Position numbers and translations under genes: made by a program
Virus record (IMG/VR): IMGVR_UViG_3300042565_000064
Location: 1-23,771 of that record
Strand: one strand, 5' to 3'
Length of the DNA stretch: 23,771 nt
Source: a virus
The notes under the pieces: generated by a model
The model's database searches: none
What the model saw: only the letters and a program-made list of their open reading frames with translations
Told to the model about the DNA's origin: nothing
In this document: in pieces, positions 1-11,463 of the stretch
How the letters are laid out: the number at the start of each line of letters is the position of its first letter
Numbering within the stretch: position 1 is the stretch's first letter

Positions 1-261
1 TCTTTTCTGCACACGATAGTTCTCCGCTTCAATCTCAGCCTCACGCAACCATCCGCTCAAATCAATACGACCATCACGGCGTGGTGCCTTTGCTTCAATG
101 ACATAGCCATCGGTGTTAGCAGGAAGGTAGACATCACCGATGTCATTGCGCCCAGCACGAGGCAAACGCTGTGCGTTTAAACCCTGCTCCATAAGCCAGT
201 CTGCTAGTTCTATTTCAAATGCAGCGCCTCTGCGCTTGTTACTCGCTTGCTGTGTTGGCAT
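1..261 (-). CDS. Holliday-junction-resolvase-like PD-(D/E)XK nuclease (3' end cut by window)
   Basis: Probable structure-specific endonuclease that would cut branched recombination or replication intermediates. I translated 87 codons from an ATG at 261; the frame is still open at the window edge, so the C-terminus is missing. Seen: an N-terminal R-G-x-x-x-E pattern (Arg11-Gly12 to Glu16), then Arg-x-Gly-Arg-Asn-Asp-Ile-Gly-Asp (35-43) and Val-Ile-Glu-Ala-Lys (54-58). This is the D...ExK spacing of Hjc-type resolvases and related PD-(D/E)XK enzymes. The start is supported by AAAGGA about 9 nt upstream. It overlaps the glycosyltransferase gene by 23 nt. With the upstream Cas4-like nuclease and RecA-like ATPase it forms a recombination set. 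Alternatives are a VRR-NUC or other phage endonuclease. The fold is fairly sure, the exact substrate is not. Confidence 0.75.
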   Translation of the reverse strand, partial: MPTQQASNKRRGAAFEIELADWLMEQGLNAQRLPRAGRNDIGDVYLPANTDGYVIEAKAPRRDGRIDLSGWLREAEIEAENYRVQKR

Positions 262-967
262 CTTGCTTTTTCCTTTCTGCACTTTCAATGGCTGCCCAGT
301 AAAGGTTGTAGTAGTTATCATCAAAGGCAAAGCGCTTCATGTGCTTGACCAATGCAGATGTGTTAGCAACTACTGGCACACCAGCAGCCTTAACCTTGCG
401 GAAGAAGGCAATGTCCTCACCAATAAACTGTTCACCACTTGCATTGTTCTCAGCAAACACAAAGTCAGTCTCACCAAACTTATCATGCAGTGCCTTGATA
501 ACAGACTTATGCATTAAAACTAAACCTAAACCAGCGCTATCAACCTTAATAACTTGATTGCGTGGTAGTGGGTGATGATGTTTAATCTCGTACTCATTTC
601 CACCTTCATCAAAGATAGCAGGCATAGGCATCATCAGTGAGTTCTCCATCTGCTTAGAGATAAAGTACACACCGCTTACGATAGGTCGAGCAATCTTGTC
701 AGCGGTATCCCATAGAATCTTGACAACCTCTTTGGTAAGTACGATGTCGGAGTCCACCCACAACGCCCAGTCAGTACCAATCTTGCCCCACATTTCAAAT
801 GCAGCCTGTCGTTGGCGAGCAATCTGATTACCCTGTACACGGATAGCGTTATGGAATGGCACCTCACCAGTGATGATGCTGTATACCAAGCCCTCTGTGA
901 ACTTGCCGTCAGTGTTCCCGTTGTCACACCAAATAACTGATAATGTTTCTTTGTTACTATGCGCCAT
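239..967 (-). CDS. GT-A-type glycosyltransferase
   Basis: Probable nucleotide-sugar-dependent glycosyltransferase. The 242-residue protein has the DxD metal-binding motif Asp72-Ser-Asp74 in a WVDSDIVL strand. A later Gly-Glu-Asp (183-185) precedes an aliphatic helix and strand, and His209 is a candidate third metal ligand; this is the usual order in GT-A (GT2-like and ANP1/Mnn9-like) folds. No membrane segment is visible, so it should be cytosolic. A GAGGAAG ribosome site lies upstream of the ATG, and the spacer between them is a GTTTAAAC palindrome. It overlaps the upstream gene by 11 nt. It sits among DNA-metabolism genes, not next to tail genes, so the acceptor could be modified DNA bases as well as virion protein or host glycan; this is inference. 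Class is fairly sure, acceptor unknown. Confidence 0.75.
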   Translation of the reverse strand: MAHSNKETLSVIWCDNGNTDGKFTEGLVYSIITGEVPFHNAIRVQGNQIARQRQAAFEMWGKIGTDWALWVDSDIVLTKEVVKILWDTADKIARPIVSGVYFISKQMENSLMMPMPAIFDEGGNEYEIKHHHPLPRNQVIKVDSAGLGLVLMHKSVIKALHDKFGETDFVFAENNASGEQFIGEDIAFFRKVKAAGVPVVANTSALVKHMKRFAFDDNYYNLYWAAIESAERKKQDANTASE

Positions 968-1376
968 GTTTAAACACTTCCTCTGATTTGTCGAGTACTT
1001 CCATTGCGTTCTCTGCTAGGTCTTTCCATGACTCACTCATGAGTCGGAGTTGGGTTGCGATTTCTTCTCTGCACTCTGGTCCGTGGTCCTCAGTAAGATG
1101 TTCAGCCAACTGCCCAACATAATCAGCGAACTGTAAAGATTCAAACCAGACTTGTGATGGGTCGTAGATTTTTTGTGTTGCCTCATCAATGCGTTCAATA
1201 AACTCTGGTAGTCCATCAAGTATTGCTTGTTTCATCTCCGCTGGAATTTGTTTCGCTGACATCACTGCCTGTTCCATCATCTCTGGTGTAACTGATAGTG
1301 CCTTCATCAAGGAGTCTTTTGAATTCCTCATCTGTGAGGTCTTTGAATCTTCCGCTTTCTTCTTCCTGCCAAACAT
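957..1376 (-). CDS. Hypothetical helical acidic protein
   Basis: Not recognised. The 139 residues begin with a basic patch (RKKK, 4-7). The rest is mostly helix-forming and acidic, with Met-rich segments near 24-50 and a Glu-rich C-terminal helix. There is no signal peptide, membrane helix or cysteine cluster. The start at 1376 has a GGAGAG ribosome site five nt upstream. The first 53 or so codons lie inside the preceding gene in another frame (161-nt overlap), while the 3' end overlaps the glycosyltransferase start by 11 nt. A later start at Met17 or Met24 would shorten the overlap but lacks an equally good ribosome site. Its place between the ATPase and the glycosyltransferase suggests an early accessory function, nothing firmer. 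Confidence 0.6.
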   Translation of the reverse strand: MFGRKKKAEDSKTSQMRNSKDSLMKALSVTPEMMEQAVMSAKQIPAEMKQAILDGLPEFIERIDEATQKIYDPSQVWFESLQFADYVGQLAEHLTEDHGPECREEIATQLRLMSESWKDLAENAMEVLDKSEEVFKHGA

Positions 1377-1542
1377 ACGCTCTCCATCCCACTGTCCATG
1401 AAAACTGTTTCGGTATAAACATCAACTGCGATTTAATGTCTGTAATCAATGGCTTAGTTGGGACGACTACATCCTCTGCGTTTAAACTACCCTGCAGTTC
1501 TCCCGCATTTTCCACCACTTTGATTTCCCATTTAGGTGTCAT
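1216..1542 (-). CDS. Hypothetical protein overlapping its downstream neighbour
   Basis: Not recognised. The 108-residue protein starts at an ATG with an excellent ribosome site (AAGGAG, about 5 nt spacing), just after the ATPase stop. The middle (about 40-60) carries Phe/Trp-rich segments such as FSWTVGWRAYVW. The C-terminal half is acidic, with a DLTDEEFKRLLDEGTI helix (68-83) and a Ser/Thr/Asp tail. The last third overlaps the 139-residue gene by 161 nt in a different frame. Because both genes have good ribosome sites, I keep both. The alternative is that the annotated stop follows a sequence change and the two were once one gene. The codon for Asn21 lies in a GTTTAAAC palindrome. Confidence 0.6.
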   Translation of the reverse strand: MTPKWEIKVVENAGELQGSLNAEDVVVPTKPLITDIKSQLMFIPKQFSWTVGWRAYVWQEEESGRFKDLTDEEFKRLLDEGTISYTRDDGTGSDVSETNSSGDETSNT

Positions 1543-1551
1543 AACTTCTCC

Positions 1552-2331
1552 TTATGCCTGTAATAAATCTGCCAGTTGCATACTGGCTGGGTTGTATGCA
1601 AGCCACACTGGACTTGCGCCTGTCGAATCGGCTGGACCATAACGATTCTTTACCGCACACACACCCATCGAAGCGATTTGGTTATACACAGTAAGGATTA
1701 ACGAAGGGGTCTGAGCAATCTTTCCATGCAGGGAACTGCTTGGTGGGCAAGGATTACCCGTAACTCCCTGACTTGTATGATGGCAAACAACAACAGCAGC
1801 ACCAGTTTCTCTAGCCCACCACTTGAGTTCACGCATAAGTGTGCGTAGTCCGCCCCACTCATCTTGTCCATCAAGGGTTACATCAACTGCGTTGTCAAGC
1901 ACAATGAGTTCAACATCTTGACCAAGGCGCTCTCGTGATGCGAGGACTGCATCCTCTACATCCTTAAGCGTAGGTGCCGAGTCAAACTCCCACATGATGT
2001 GGTCAGCAGGCTTGAGCATTTGTGCTGCCCACTCTCTGTCTGCTTCCATCAATGGTTCTACTTCTTGTTGTGGTCTGCCTGTAATCATCGCAAGCAAACG
2101 CAAACTCATAGTATGTGAGTGTGTATCTGCTGAGATGTACAGGGTTGGAACTTGAGCATGGACTGCAAGCGACAAGGCAAAGGTAGATTTACCTGAGCCT
2201 GGAGGACCTGCAACCATACTCACTTCCCCCCGTCTAAACGCTATCTGCTGCTCAGCAAGTGAGCGCCACACCGTAGGTAATGTGGCACCCCCTTGTGAGG
2301 CAGTCTTGATAGCACGGGATAAACGGCGCAT
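1552..2331 (-). CDS. RecA/DnaB-like P-loop ATPase
   Basis: Probable recombinase or helicase-loader-type ATPase acting on phage DNA. The 259-residue protein has a Walker A GPPGSGKST at 42-50. A strand-plus-aspartate Walker B (ELIVLDNAVD) ends near Asp146-Asp150, and VVVCHHTSQ (180-188) fits the position of the RecA/DnaB sensor strand. This single-domain layout matches AAA_25/Sak4-like and RepA-like phage ATPases; there is no DnaB N-terminal domain or primase region. The start follows the previous stop by three nt (TAA, CAC, ATG) with no clear ribosome site, suggesting translational coupling. Upstream neighbours are a zinc-ribbon protein and a Cas4-like nuclease, so a single-strand annealing or recombination role is plausible. 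A replicative-helicase role is the main alternative. Confidence 0.8.
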   Translation of the reverse strand: MRRLSRAIKTASQGGATLPTVWRSLAEQQIAFRRGEVSMVAGPPGSGKSTFALSLAVHAQVPTLYISADTHSHTMSLRLLAMITGRPQQEVEPLMEADREWAAQMLKPADHIMWEFDSAPTLKDVEDAVLASRERLGQDVELIVLDNAVDVTLDGQDEWGGLRTLMRELKWWARETGAAVVVCHHTSQGVTGNPCPPSSSLHGKIAQTPSLILTVYNQIASMGVCAVKNRYGPADSTGASPVWLAYNPASMQLADLLQA

Positions 2332-4912: not shown

Positions 4913-5178
4913 TTAGATTCATCTTCCTTCTTCTTACTCTTGAGTCCATTAGCAGATACGATTCCTGCTAGTGTGCCAGTAAGGAACACAGTCAGCGTAG
5001 ATACAAGTTCAATGAAGGCTGCATCATTAGGTGCTTGCTTCATTGGTTGTGTTACAAATACCAATGCCCATAGCAGGGCAAAAACTGAGCCAGCAAATAC
5101 CAACGCTAATATGATGCCAATAATGACAATCAATCTAGCGTGTAGTTCTTCTGGGGTATATCTTTCAGGGCGTTTCAT
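4909..5178 (-). CDS. Two-helix membrane protein, holin candidate
   Basis: 89 residues from the ATG at 5178, with AGAGG seven nt upstream; a TTG one codon earlier is possible. A polar N-terminus (KRPERYTPEELHAR) precedes a long hydrophobic helix at about 16-42 (IVIIGIILALVFAGSVF onward). A second helix lies at about 57-78 (STLTVFLTGTLAGIV), followed by a Lys/Asp/Glu-rich tail. This layout and the location immediately before the endolysin fit a holin with two membrane segments. Its start overlaps the lipoprotein gene's 3' end by 14 nt. With the 61-residue membrane protein downstream, it gives two holin-like genes flanking the lysin; which one sets lysis timing is unknown. Confidence 0.7.
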   Translation of the reverse strand: MKRPERYTPEELHARLIVIIGIILALVFAGSVFALLWALVFVTQPMKQAPNDAAFIELVSTLTVFLTGTLAGIVSANGLKSKKKEDESK

Positions 5179-5353
5179 CAAATACCTCTGGTAATAAATC
5201 GGAGGAACAGGTGCCAGTTACTTCACACTGAGGTGGGTTGCACTCAGGCTTTTCCCAATTCTCAAACTCTTGACATGGGTATCTAACCCATCCTTGATAA
5301 CCGCAACCACTAAGAGTTATTGCGAGTAAGAAGGATGCGATAAATTTCTTCAA
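5165..5353 (-). CDS. Small Cys-rich lipoprotein, outer-spanin candidate
   Basis: 62 residues with a clear lipoprotein signal: Lys-Lys at 2-3, a hydrophobic stretch 4-14 and lipobox Leu-Ser-Gly-Cys ending at Cys17. The mature part is about 46 residues, rich in Cys and Pro (Cys27, Cys38, Cys43, Cys49). The start codon appears to be TTG, with only a weak AGG just upstream. The first 44 nt lie inside the preceding membrane/coiled-coil gene in another frame, as in Rz/Rz1-type nested pairs. Similar small lipoproteins occur in marine phages next to lysis genes. The outer-spanin role is inference; a lipoprotein with an exclusion or adhesion role is the alternative. Confidence 0.65.
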   Translation of the reverse strand: MKKFIASFLLAITLSGCGYQGWVRYPCQEFENWEKPECNPPQCEVTGTCSSDLLPEVFDETP

Positions 5354-5513
5354 CCTGTCGTTCCAATCTGTTTACTGAATCCTTGAGACTTGTACCAGAG
5401 TTAGGCTTAAGTTCATACAGATAATGTTTTACTAGCCAGCGAACTGCTGTAGCAAAAGCAGCAACAAGGGTACAAACGGATACGGCTAAACCTAGCCACT
5501 GAGCAGGAGTCAT
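5310..5513 (-). CDS. Membrane-anchored coiled-coil protein, inner-spanin or holin candidate
   Basis: 67 residues. One N-terminal membrane helix at about 5-27 (WLGLAVSVCTLVAAFATAV) is followed by a short basic/aromatic turn. A C-terminal amphipathic helix (about 43-63, LKDSVNRLERQVEEIYRIL) has heptad-like hydrophobic spacing. Small phage proteins with this plan are annotated variously as holin, XhlA-like or i-spanin. The gene follows the 654-residue tail gene and its 3' end contains the start of the lipoprotein gene. It opens the lysis cassette. Topology is predicted by eye only. Confidence 0.6.
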   Translation of the reverse strand: MTPAQWLGLAVSVCTLVAAFATAVRWLVKHYLYELKPNSGTSLKDSVNRLERQVEEIYRILLTRNNS

Positions 5514-8994: not shown

Positions 8995-11463
8995 TTAGAA
9001 CGCACCCATGATGGTCATGAGTTCCAAATCTAATTCGTATCCGTCAGCATCAAGTGTTGTGAACTGGTCTGAACGGAGTTTTGTAAATCCAACCAATGTT
9101 GTATTAGTCGAACCTGAGGCAATGGATGTTGAACCAAGGGTAGGTGCTGAGTATCCAGCGACAGTACCCCATGATGGTGTAGTTCCATCTGTTGTCAAGT
9201 ACTTACCTGAGTTACCAGTCTGGGCTGGAAGTCCTGCATAGTATTCACTGAATGTAATTGCAGTAGTTCCGATAACAATAGGGGCTACTGTTGTTGAGTT
9301 AATAAATGACTTATCATGATTTACTGTACCGCTAGAGCAGAATAACTCATCGCCATTTTTCATTTCACCTGATGGATTATTATCTGCATCAGTTGCTCGA
9401 GTAAGGACCCAGTTAGTTGAACCACTACCAACAGTAGTAAGTGTGTAGATACCGTTTTCTAATTGTGTTGTTTGGTCCTTTACAAGGACACGAGCGTTGG
9501 CAGCAGGGCTTACTCCATCTATACTAAATGCCGCTTGTGCGCCAGAATTAGTAAGAGTTGCACCTACACCTGAACTTCCGTTGCTATAGGTAGCAGTTAG
9601 ATTTGCTGTAGTCGCTGCAACAACTGACTCATGATAGTTAATCTGTGTAACTACTGCATCAACATACTGCTTAGTAGCAAGACCAAGGTTTGTAGTTGGG
9701 TCTGCACTAGCCAATCCACCGCTAAGAGTTAAGCCTGTGATTGTCGTATATGTAGTACCTGAGTCAATGGTTGTGCTGCCAAGGGTAGGTGCTGAGTAAG
9801 TAGTGGTTGTTGCAATCTGAACCCAGGCACTACCTGACCATACATACATATTGTTAAGCGTAGAGTTCCAATAGATAGCACCAACAAGAAGTGTGTTGCC
9901 ATCGTTATCTACTGATGGGGGCGATGACTTGCTGCCAAGGTAGCGGTCATCGAAGTTGTCATAGGTTGTTGCAGCACTTGATGCCGAAGTTGCAGCAGAA
10001 GATGCTGACAATGTTGCAGATGATGCGCTAGTCAAAGCAGAAAGCGCTTCAACGGATGCTGAGTTAGCCGATGTAGCAGCAGATGCAGCGCTTGTAGCAG
10101 CAGCAGTCTGGCTGGTAAGCGCACTTGATGCGCTAGTAGCAGCAGATGTTGCAGAAGTTGCTGCTGCGGTTTGACTTGTTAAAGCGCTAGAGGCTGATGT
10201 TGCTGCAGAAGTAGCAGATGTAGCCGCAGCAGTCGCGCTCGCCGCAGCATTTGTTGCACTCGTTGCAGCAGCACTTGCTGAGTTAGCAGATGCTGTCGCT
10301 GAGTTAGCAGCACTCGTAGCACTTGTTGCTGCAGCAGATGCGCTGTTAGCAGAATCAGTTGCGTACCCAGCAATAGTTGCTACAGAAGCAGCAGCAGTTG
10401 TGGCGCTTGCTGCAGCACTGGTTGCGCTTGTAGCAGCAGCGGTTGCACTAGCAGCAGCGCTTGTAGCGCTAGTTGCTGCAGCCGTTGCACTATTAGATGC
10501 GCTTGTAGCAGAAGTGGCAGCGGCTGTAGCAGAGGCAGCAGCAGAAGTTGCTGAGGTAGCCGCTGCAGTTGCTGATGTAGCCGAAGCACTTGCAGAAGAA
10601 GCAGATGCTGTTGCGCTATTTGCTGCGCTTGTTGCTGATGTTGCAGCAGCAGTTGCACTTGCTGCAGCAGAAGCAGCACTTGTGGCTGCAGCAGTTGCTG
10701 AACCAAGAATTGCATCTACATAATCTTTAGGTGTAGCAGAAGATGAAACCATGCCAGCAGATGAAAGACCAGTAAGTGTTACACCAGTCATATCAATAGT
10801 CTTATTAGTAAGAGTCTGAACTGCTGTATGAAGAACAACTATGCCATTTGTGTTAGGCAAAGTAATTATATTGTCTTGCGTTGGCTCTGCTACTGTAAGA
10901 GTAGTCTCATGAGCATCGGCAGTTGCACCTTCAAAGACAATACTTGCATCTACACCAGCACCAGAGATGCTTGGGTTAGTAATAGTAGGAGATGTAAGAG
11001 TCTTGCGAGTTAGTGTTTGCTCTTTAAGAGTACCAACAACTACGCCATCACCAGTCTGAATACCGTGCACATGTGTTTGGTTAGCAAGGTCAAGGATTGT
11101 TTGGTCAATGTCATAACCGCGTGCAGCAATATGTGTCTCTGACTCACGGAAGTCACGACCTGATACACCGTGGCGAACAACTGCTCCTGCGGAGTGTGCT
11201 ACGCCTTGGGTATTGTCAGAGCCACGAGTTACGCTAAGGGTTGTTCCACTACCTGCGGTAACGGTTACTACTTCTTCCTTAGATGTATCTGGGTCAACAA
11301 TAAGTGTGTAAGGGTATGATGATGGAAAGCCAGAGACAGATGCAACAATGAACGCGGTGTTTGCTGCGCCTTGTGCCTGTGCTGGAATGGAACCTGATAA
11401 CGCTGTTTCTACTGCAATCGAGGAGTAGTACCGCGCTGGGGAGCCTGGGTCGCCTGCTGCCAT
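8995..11463 (-). CDS. Long tail fibre with Ala/Ser/Thr repeat stalk
   Basis: 822 residues in clear parts. Residues 1-110 form a phage virion attachment module, including VDPDTSKEEVVTV and VTRGSDNTQGVAHSAGA. Residues 150-250 hold fibre motifs (TLTSPTITNPSISGAG, LPNTNGIVVLHTAVQTLTNKTI). Residues 255-499 are almost wholly Ala, Ser and Thr, with 14- and 21-residue periods such as SATAAATSATSAAA, probably a long trimeric helical stalk. Residues 500-550 carry the fibre module YDNFDDRYLGSKSSPP...GAIYWN...MYVWSGSAW. The last 270 residues are beta-rich. Ala/Ser/Thr stalks are known in T7-like and marine phage fibres. It likely makes first contact with the host. No enzymatic motif is visible, and the region shows no sign of breakage. 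Confidence 0.82.
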   Translation of the reverse strand: MAAGDPGSPARYYSSIAVETALSGSIPAQAQGAANTAFIVASVSGFPSSYPYTLIVDPDTSKEEVVTVTAGSGTTLSVTRGSDNTQGVAHSAGAVVRHGVSGRDFRESETHIAARGYDIDQTILDLANQTHVHGIQTGDGVVVGTLKEQTLTRKTLTSPTITNPSISGAGVDASIVFEGATADAHETTLTVAEPTQDNIITLPNTNGIVVLHTAVQTLTNKTIDMTGVTLTGLSSAGMVSSSATPKDYVDAILGSATAAATSAASAAASATAAATSATSAANSATASASSASASATSATAAATSATSAAASATAAATSATSASNSATAAATSATSAAASATAAATSATSAAASATTAAASVATIAGYATDSANSASAAATSATSAANSATASANSASAAATSATNAAASATAAATSATSAATSASSALTSQTAAATSATSAATSASSALTSQTAAATSAASAATSANSASVEALSALTSASSATLSASSAATSASSAATTYDNFDDRYLGSKSSPPSVDNDGNTLLVGAIYWNSTLNNMYVWSGSAWVQIATTTTYSAPTLGSTTIDSGTTYTTITGLTLSGGLASADPTTNLGLATKQYVDAVVTQINYHESVVAATTANLTATYSNGSSGVGATLTNSGAQAAFSIDGVSPAANARVLVKDQTTQLENGIYTLTTVGSGSTNWVLTRATDADNNPSGEMKNGDELFCSSGTVNHDKSFINSTTVAPIVIGTTAITFSEYYAGLPAQTGNSGKYLTTDGTTPSWGTVAGYSAPTLGSTSIASGSTNTTLVGFTKLRSDQFTTLDADGYELDLELMTIMGAF
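9967..10701 (-). repeat. Degenerate coding repeat (Ala/Ser/Thr stalk)
   Basis: About 735 bp encoding residues 255-499 of the long fibre. The common unit is 14 residues (42 bp). A 21-residue unit (residues 420-440 and 441-461) is nearly identical in protein but differs in codons: AGC/AGT, ACC/ACA, CTT/TTA, CAG/CAA at one Leu-Thr-Ser-Gln. The repeat creates a long open plus-strand frame that is only a shadow. Confidence 0.9.

Follow-up and report, generated by a model that had tools for sequence, protein, structure and literature searches.

We describe two overlapping genes, here designated A and B, in the virus record IMGVR_UViG_3300042565_000064 of IMG/VR, the whole 23,771 bases of which (G+C content 45.6%) are referred to below as the window. 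The two reading frames share 161 nucleotides (nt) of the minus strand (positions 1216-1376), B being in frame +1 relative to A, and the constraint along this shared DNA is split: A leads in its first part and B leads in its second. Gene A (1216-1542, minus strand; 108 amino acids, aa) starts with the ATG at 1540-1542 and ends with the stop codon at 1216-1218; gene B (957-1376, minus strand; 139 aa, mostly helical) starts with the ATG at 1374-1376. Judged from the comparison of sequences, A and B are very probably separate coding genes, each with its own initiation, which share DNA by divided constraint within a replication-linked cluster. A sequence-only reading of this DNA had already pointed to the overlap, with coordinates that proved exact, and to good ribosome sites on both genes, which were likewise found as described: the Shine-Dalgarno-like AAGGAG of A at 1548-1553 and GGAGAG of B at 1380-1385 (both on the minus strand).

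Conservation of the overlap

To collect relatives, viral contigs were scanned eight times for similarity to A or B. The resulting loci were heavily redundant, and five of the scans contributed the best 80 of 90-217 confirmed relatives. Among the loci numbered L042 and up, 373 of 378 contained both genes, none contained A only and five contained B only; all five of the latter end at a contig edge just before or within the region of the B start. Deduplication left 152 distinct sequences, 151 of them with the B start in view (in locus L391 it lies just outside the locus). The aligned A proteins (61) show 38-92% identity to that of the window, and the aligned B proteins (62) 40-97%.

The overlap was present in all 152 distinct sequences, in constant phase and with a length of 143-179 nt: 161 nt in 87 sequences, 158 nt in 35, 143 nt in 11, 149 nt in eight, 179 nt in five, 155 nt in four, and 152 and 170 nt in one each. 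Not a single one of the 152 had one frame interrupted and the other kept, the situation that the sequence-only reading had named as contradicting the overlap; its proposal that both frames are genuine genes, each with a ribosome site of its own, is borne out. The third frame over the overlap contains 5.2 stops on average and is never stop-free (151 relatives). One relative (L040:428-829, on a contig shared with L107) has a B protein lacking seven residues of the helical core, with A, B and the overlap still open.

Selection along the shared DNA

Selection was analysed by classifying the substitutions in 51 disjoint pairs according to what they do in each of the two frames, with non-coding frames as controls (wA and wB denote the estimates for the two genes; intervals follow them in brackets). 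The codon register is such that the third position in A is the second in B, and the third position in B is the first in A. Upstream of the B start, where A alone is coding, wA was 0.21, as against 0.75 (0.58-0.98) for the control in the B frame. In part 1 of the overlap (1293-1376, minus strand; 84 nt), in which the conserved C-terminal part of A lies over a basic leader of B (codons 1-28), wA was 0.25 (0.19-0.32) and wB 0.50 (0.40-0.63; codons 2-28), i.e. purifying selection was detected in both frames, although weak for B. In part 2 (1216-1292, minus strand; 77 nt), where an acidic tail of A lies over the beginning of the folded core of B (codons 29-47), wB was 0.32 (0.25-0.39). Purifying selection on the amino acids of A was not seen in this part, with wA at 1.59 (1.27-2.06) versus 1.14 (0.94-1.35) in the A-frame control downstream, where B alone is coding and wB was 0.21. 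The pattern was the same in a previous analysis of 38 pairs.

Suppression of synonymous changes in both frames had been suggested as a check on double coding. It was observed for A, the synonymous rate of which drops around the B start and in part 1, but not for B over the tail of A.

Several of these results weigh against two genes that divide the overlap between them. The leader of B is weakly constrained, and its wB interval just touches that of the control. Within B codons 11-20, synonymous changes in A are little suppressed (dSN 0.259 versus 0.28-0.30 upstream), and in part 2 the synonymous rate of B is not lowered (dNS 0.285 versus 0.276 downstream). The confidence of the structural models described below is modest, with a predicted template modelling score (pTM) of 0.49 for each protein. 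Finally, odd relatives may have been missed, since the collection depended on resemblance to A or B and was confined in several scans to the best 80 of up to 217.

Putative initiation of B within A

The motif GWRAYVWQ of protein A is encoded at 1366-1389 (minus strand), and the same DNA carries both the Shine-Dalgarno-like site of B, which lies within the A codons for GWR, and the B start. Such a site (GGAG in 69 sequences, GGAGG in 64, GGAA in 18) precedes B in all 151 sequences, and the start codon is ATG in 80 and TTG in 71 of them. The A codon that contains the B start has T as its last base in each of the 151 sequences, while coding for Y, L, I or V, and the A codon that follows it is GTT in 152 of 152; outside the overlap, GTT accounts for 483 of 1,474 Val codons. 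Residues G52, W53, V57 and W58 of A are invariant in the 61 aligned proteins, as is MFG at the start of B in the 62 aligned proteins (the tool having translated TTG starts as M). Wherever GWR has its Arg (89 sequences), the codon is AGA or AGG, the remainder of the 104 compared having Lys (AAA or AAG); on its own this is a mild point, because these two codons are the most frequent ones for Arg in the rest of A as well. The ribosome site of A itself is clear in the window; in some relatives, the 15 nt preceding the A start that the script selected contain no obvious motif.

If B in truth started further downstream (e.g. at Met33 or Met34), its frame in part 1 would be open by chance and there would be little double coding. 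Such a start would agree with the weak constraint and predicted disorder of the leader and with the length of the B relative A0A1B0XTZ6, an entry of predicted structure that has 107 aa versus 132-146 aa in the aligned relatives and would fit a shortened start. However, a Shine-Dalgarno-like 4-mer before an in-frame start within codons 26-40 was found in just 8 of 38 representatives (here and below, counts out of 38 representatives refer to an ungapped comparison), whereas the upstream start with its site is retained in 151 of 151 sequences and is followed by the invariant MFG. The openness of the leader is a further argument. We held one protein fixed and redrew its codons, for 36 lineages of less than 80% identity by gapped alignment; the 151 sequences with a B start comprise 148 different ones over positions -100 to +300 and 133 within the overlap. 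With the A protein fixed, an average of 18% of draws left the B leader open; in the real sequences it is open in 36 of 36 lineages. Taken together, these observations make a downstream start improbable.

A programmed +1 frameshift or slippage, yielding an A-B fusion, had also been proposed, together with a fusion remnant. A frameshift would be in keeping with the length of the shared stretch, which suffices for a shift, and with the +1 phase of B relative to A. Against it, the stop codon of A varies (TGA in 107, TAA in 25 and TAG in 19 of 151 sequences), as do the codon before it and the base after it; B retains its own start and Shine-Dalgarno-like site; and the RNA around the B start forms no strong structure in the representatives tested (mean z +0.35). 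Neither a slippery site nor a conserved stop context was found in the 151 sequences, in which no dedicated frameshift predictor was used. Neither the frameshift nor the fusion remnant is upheld by these data, and we consider the former extremely improbable.

The acidic tail of A

When the B protein was held fixed in the same redraw test, the average share of draws with an open A tail was 27%, whereas all 36 lineages have it open. Products of such probabilities over lineages (log10 -22.2 and -30.1) assume independence, which the lineages violate, and are not relied on. The net charge of the tail averages -3.8, versus +1.35 in the open draws, and, relative to open draws, it lies below expectation (p<0.05) in 29 of 36 lineages; without that condition it does so in 19 of 36. 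As a control, five stretches further along B were read as pseudo-A tails in the same false frame, and 1, 0, 0, 0 and 0 of the 36 lineages gave such a result. In the 38 representatives, G occupies 50% of the wobble positions of B over the tail versus 14-25% downstream. The tail thus appears to be selected to remain open and acidic without keeping a particular sequence, and this selection would bias the synonymous codons of B towards wobble G. Such selection on charge without sequence would represent a case invisible to ordinary tests of synonymous suppression or of the ratio of nonsynonymous to synonymous rates (dN/dS).

A bolder proposal is that the tail bears a function through its acidity, free of any set sequence and selected for charge only via the wobble positions of B, and that together with the basic B leader it may make electrostatic contacts, either mutual or with the helicase machinery. 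We regard this as a tentative and rather unlikely extension. The charges of the tail and the leader do not covary (38 representatives; rho -0.08, p 0.62), and the basicity of the leader is about what the codons of A give anyway (positive charge 5.9 versus 5.3 expected from these codons alone); both observations speak against a contact between tail and leader.

Predicted structures and homology searches

AlphaFold models of A and B were built from 61 and 62 sequences, respectively. The A model is ordered to approximately residue 89, and residues 90-108 have a predicted local distance difference test score (pLDDT) below 50. In the B model, residues 1-4 and 6-24 fall below 50, and longer, better-supported helices span residues 31-136. 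Since residue 31 of B is encoded at residue 86 of A, the folded parts predicted for the two proteins adjoin one another, with the disordered end of each overlying the fold of the other.

Profile searches of Pfam and PHROGs with A and B gave no confident match, only weak scattered ones. The family phrog_583 was considered for A and rejected: it matched 10 of the 61 A members (best E 0.0013), none of ten selected members searched singly (E ≤1; possibly a different ten) and none of four records. In structure searches, none of 38 aligned PDB chains reached Z of at least 2 with A, and the best match of B, among helical chains, had a Z of 7.3, which the tool rates as common for helical bundles. The sole good structure matches among viral proteins were one evident relative of each, A0A1B0XTZ6 for B and A0A1B0XU03 for A, both nameless. 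No match to A or B was detected in the phages collection (E ≤1), no relative of either in genome_contigs (two scans) and no match in Rfam at the gathering score.

Proposed origin and maintenance of the overlap

We propose that ribosomes initiate A at its own site and would initiate B independently, at the Shine-Dalgarno site and ATG or TTG inside the GWRAYVW codons of A. Part 1 would be held mainly by the folded C-terminal part of A, with the flexible basic leader of B riding along, and part 2 by the helical core of B, with the flexible tail of A riding along. The overlap is seemingly tolerated because the folded part of each gene covers the flexible end of the other. Most likely it arose from two adjacent genes, the start of B having shifted upstream into A and the stop of A downstream into B. 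Relatives without the overlap, by which the two extensions could be ordered in time, were not found among the sequences collected.

An alternative origin is de novo overprinting, in which a whole gene would have arisen inside or over the other and not by extension of two neighbours. The absence of confident matches to A or B in Pfam, PHROGs, the phages collection and genome_contigs would be expected of a new gene. On the other hand, both genes have conserved parts wholly outside the overlap and under purifying selection (0.31 for A residues 1-55, 0.20 for B residues 54-139), and no relative with just one of the two was found to provide a polarity for overprinting. We therefore judge the origin of a whole gene in this way very improbable. 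Of the overprinting envisaged in the sequence-only reading, what stands is its terminal form, with the B leader over the folded end of A and the A tail over the folded start of B; neither gene as a whole looks new. Extension of two neighbouring genes remains our preferred explanation.

Comparison with known overlaps

Displacement of a start or stop is a described origin of prokaryotic overlaps (PMC3887535; PMC2268670), and in this respect A/B resembles other terminal same-strand +1 overlaps. It differs from them in length (161 nt), +1 overlaps in viral reference genomes having a median of 14 nt with an interquartile range of 8-26 (PMC8903798); of viral overlaps overall, 84% are shorter than 50 nt (PMC7017920). 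The A/B overlap is kept down to approximately 40% protein identity, whereas the shared overlaps catalogued in PMC7017920 are 95% similar, the largest being 185 and 112 nt. As in the segregated overlap of Rev and Env of human immunodeficiency virus 1 (HIV-1; PMC9119678), selection on each nucleotide comes mainly from one gene, and disorder in one frame eases the conflict with a structured frame (PMC8227390). Unlike in these systems, the division in A/B is reciprocal along a single overlap, and the tail of A keeps a charge bias without sequence.

The kind of overlap is therefore already known; what is unusual, for phage overlaps in this phase, is how long and how well conserved it is. What it combines is a reciprocal division of constraint and an apparent charge-only selection on one tail, the latter being the less usual of the two. 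No publication on the A-B gene pair was found in the accessible part of the literature. With its length, its deep conservation and its many natural variants, this same-strand overlap makes the idea of sharing by disorder over fold testable in detail. It is worth mentioning that Prodigal limits same-strand overlaps to 60 bp (PMC2848648), so full-length A and B cannot both be called, and automatic annotation would truncate or miss one or the other; gene pairs of this type are thus likely to be under-annotated.

Gene neighbourhood and possible host

The order of genes on the minus strand is helicase, A, B and a glycosyltransferase-like gene. The DnaB-like helicase gene adjoining A (1552-2331, minus strand) matches phrog_243 (E 8.3e-75), and the glycosyltransferase-like gene after B (239-967, minus strand) matches phrog_34859 (E 3.2e-118). 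Of 151 relatives, 149 have a helicase match upstream of A and the other two have no room for it; a glycosyltransferase match followed B in 146 of 151, four lacking it at this place and one having no room. The helicase and nuclease neighbours suggest that A and B may belong to a replication module.

Loci L213 and L215 carry a resolvase match directly after B, with no glycosyltransferase match there and with the A-B overlap retained. In L110 and L261, B and the glycosyltransferase match are approximately 0.95 kb apart, with some other sequence in between. The glycosyltransferase open reading frame (ORF) at L036:5380-5862 encodes only 160 aa, seemingly through an in-frame internal loss.

The nearest named relatives of the flanking genes belong to phages E7 and F5 (OX376640, OX376641), with 49% identity for the helicase and 53-54% for the glycosyltransferase. 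Because these phages come from freshwater and infect 'Ca. Planktophila' (PMC10202952), the host of the virus might, as a weak suggestion, be a freshwater actinobacterium. Unlike the window, E7 and F5 have no match to A or B at E ≤1. In E7 we read two ORFs after the helicase, one of 65 aa and one resolvase-like; the glycosyltransferase gene is located at another place.

Other overlapping frames in the window

The sequence-only reading had held most overlaps in this genome to be 1-25 nt long. Among the 28 candidate genes of the window (with some starts unvetted), the other overlaps measure 1-23 nt, apart from one of 44 nt at 5310-5353; the statement thus needs one exception, and 161 nt is still unusually long. 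This second-longest listed overlap (within 5165-5513) joins a small lipoprotein-like ORF, the LSGC motif of which we take to be a lipobox, to another small ORF whose N-terminal region includes a hydrophobic stretch. Positions 8995-11463 encode a long Ala/Ser/Thr-rich repeat protein, and the ORFs found over it in other frames (e.g. 10380-10715) look like by-products of the repeats.
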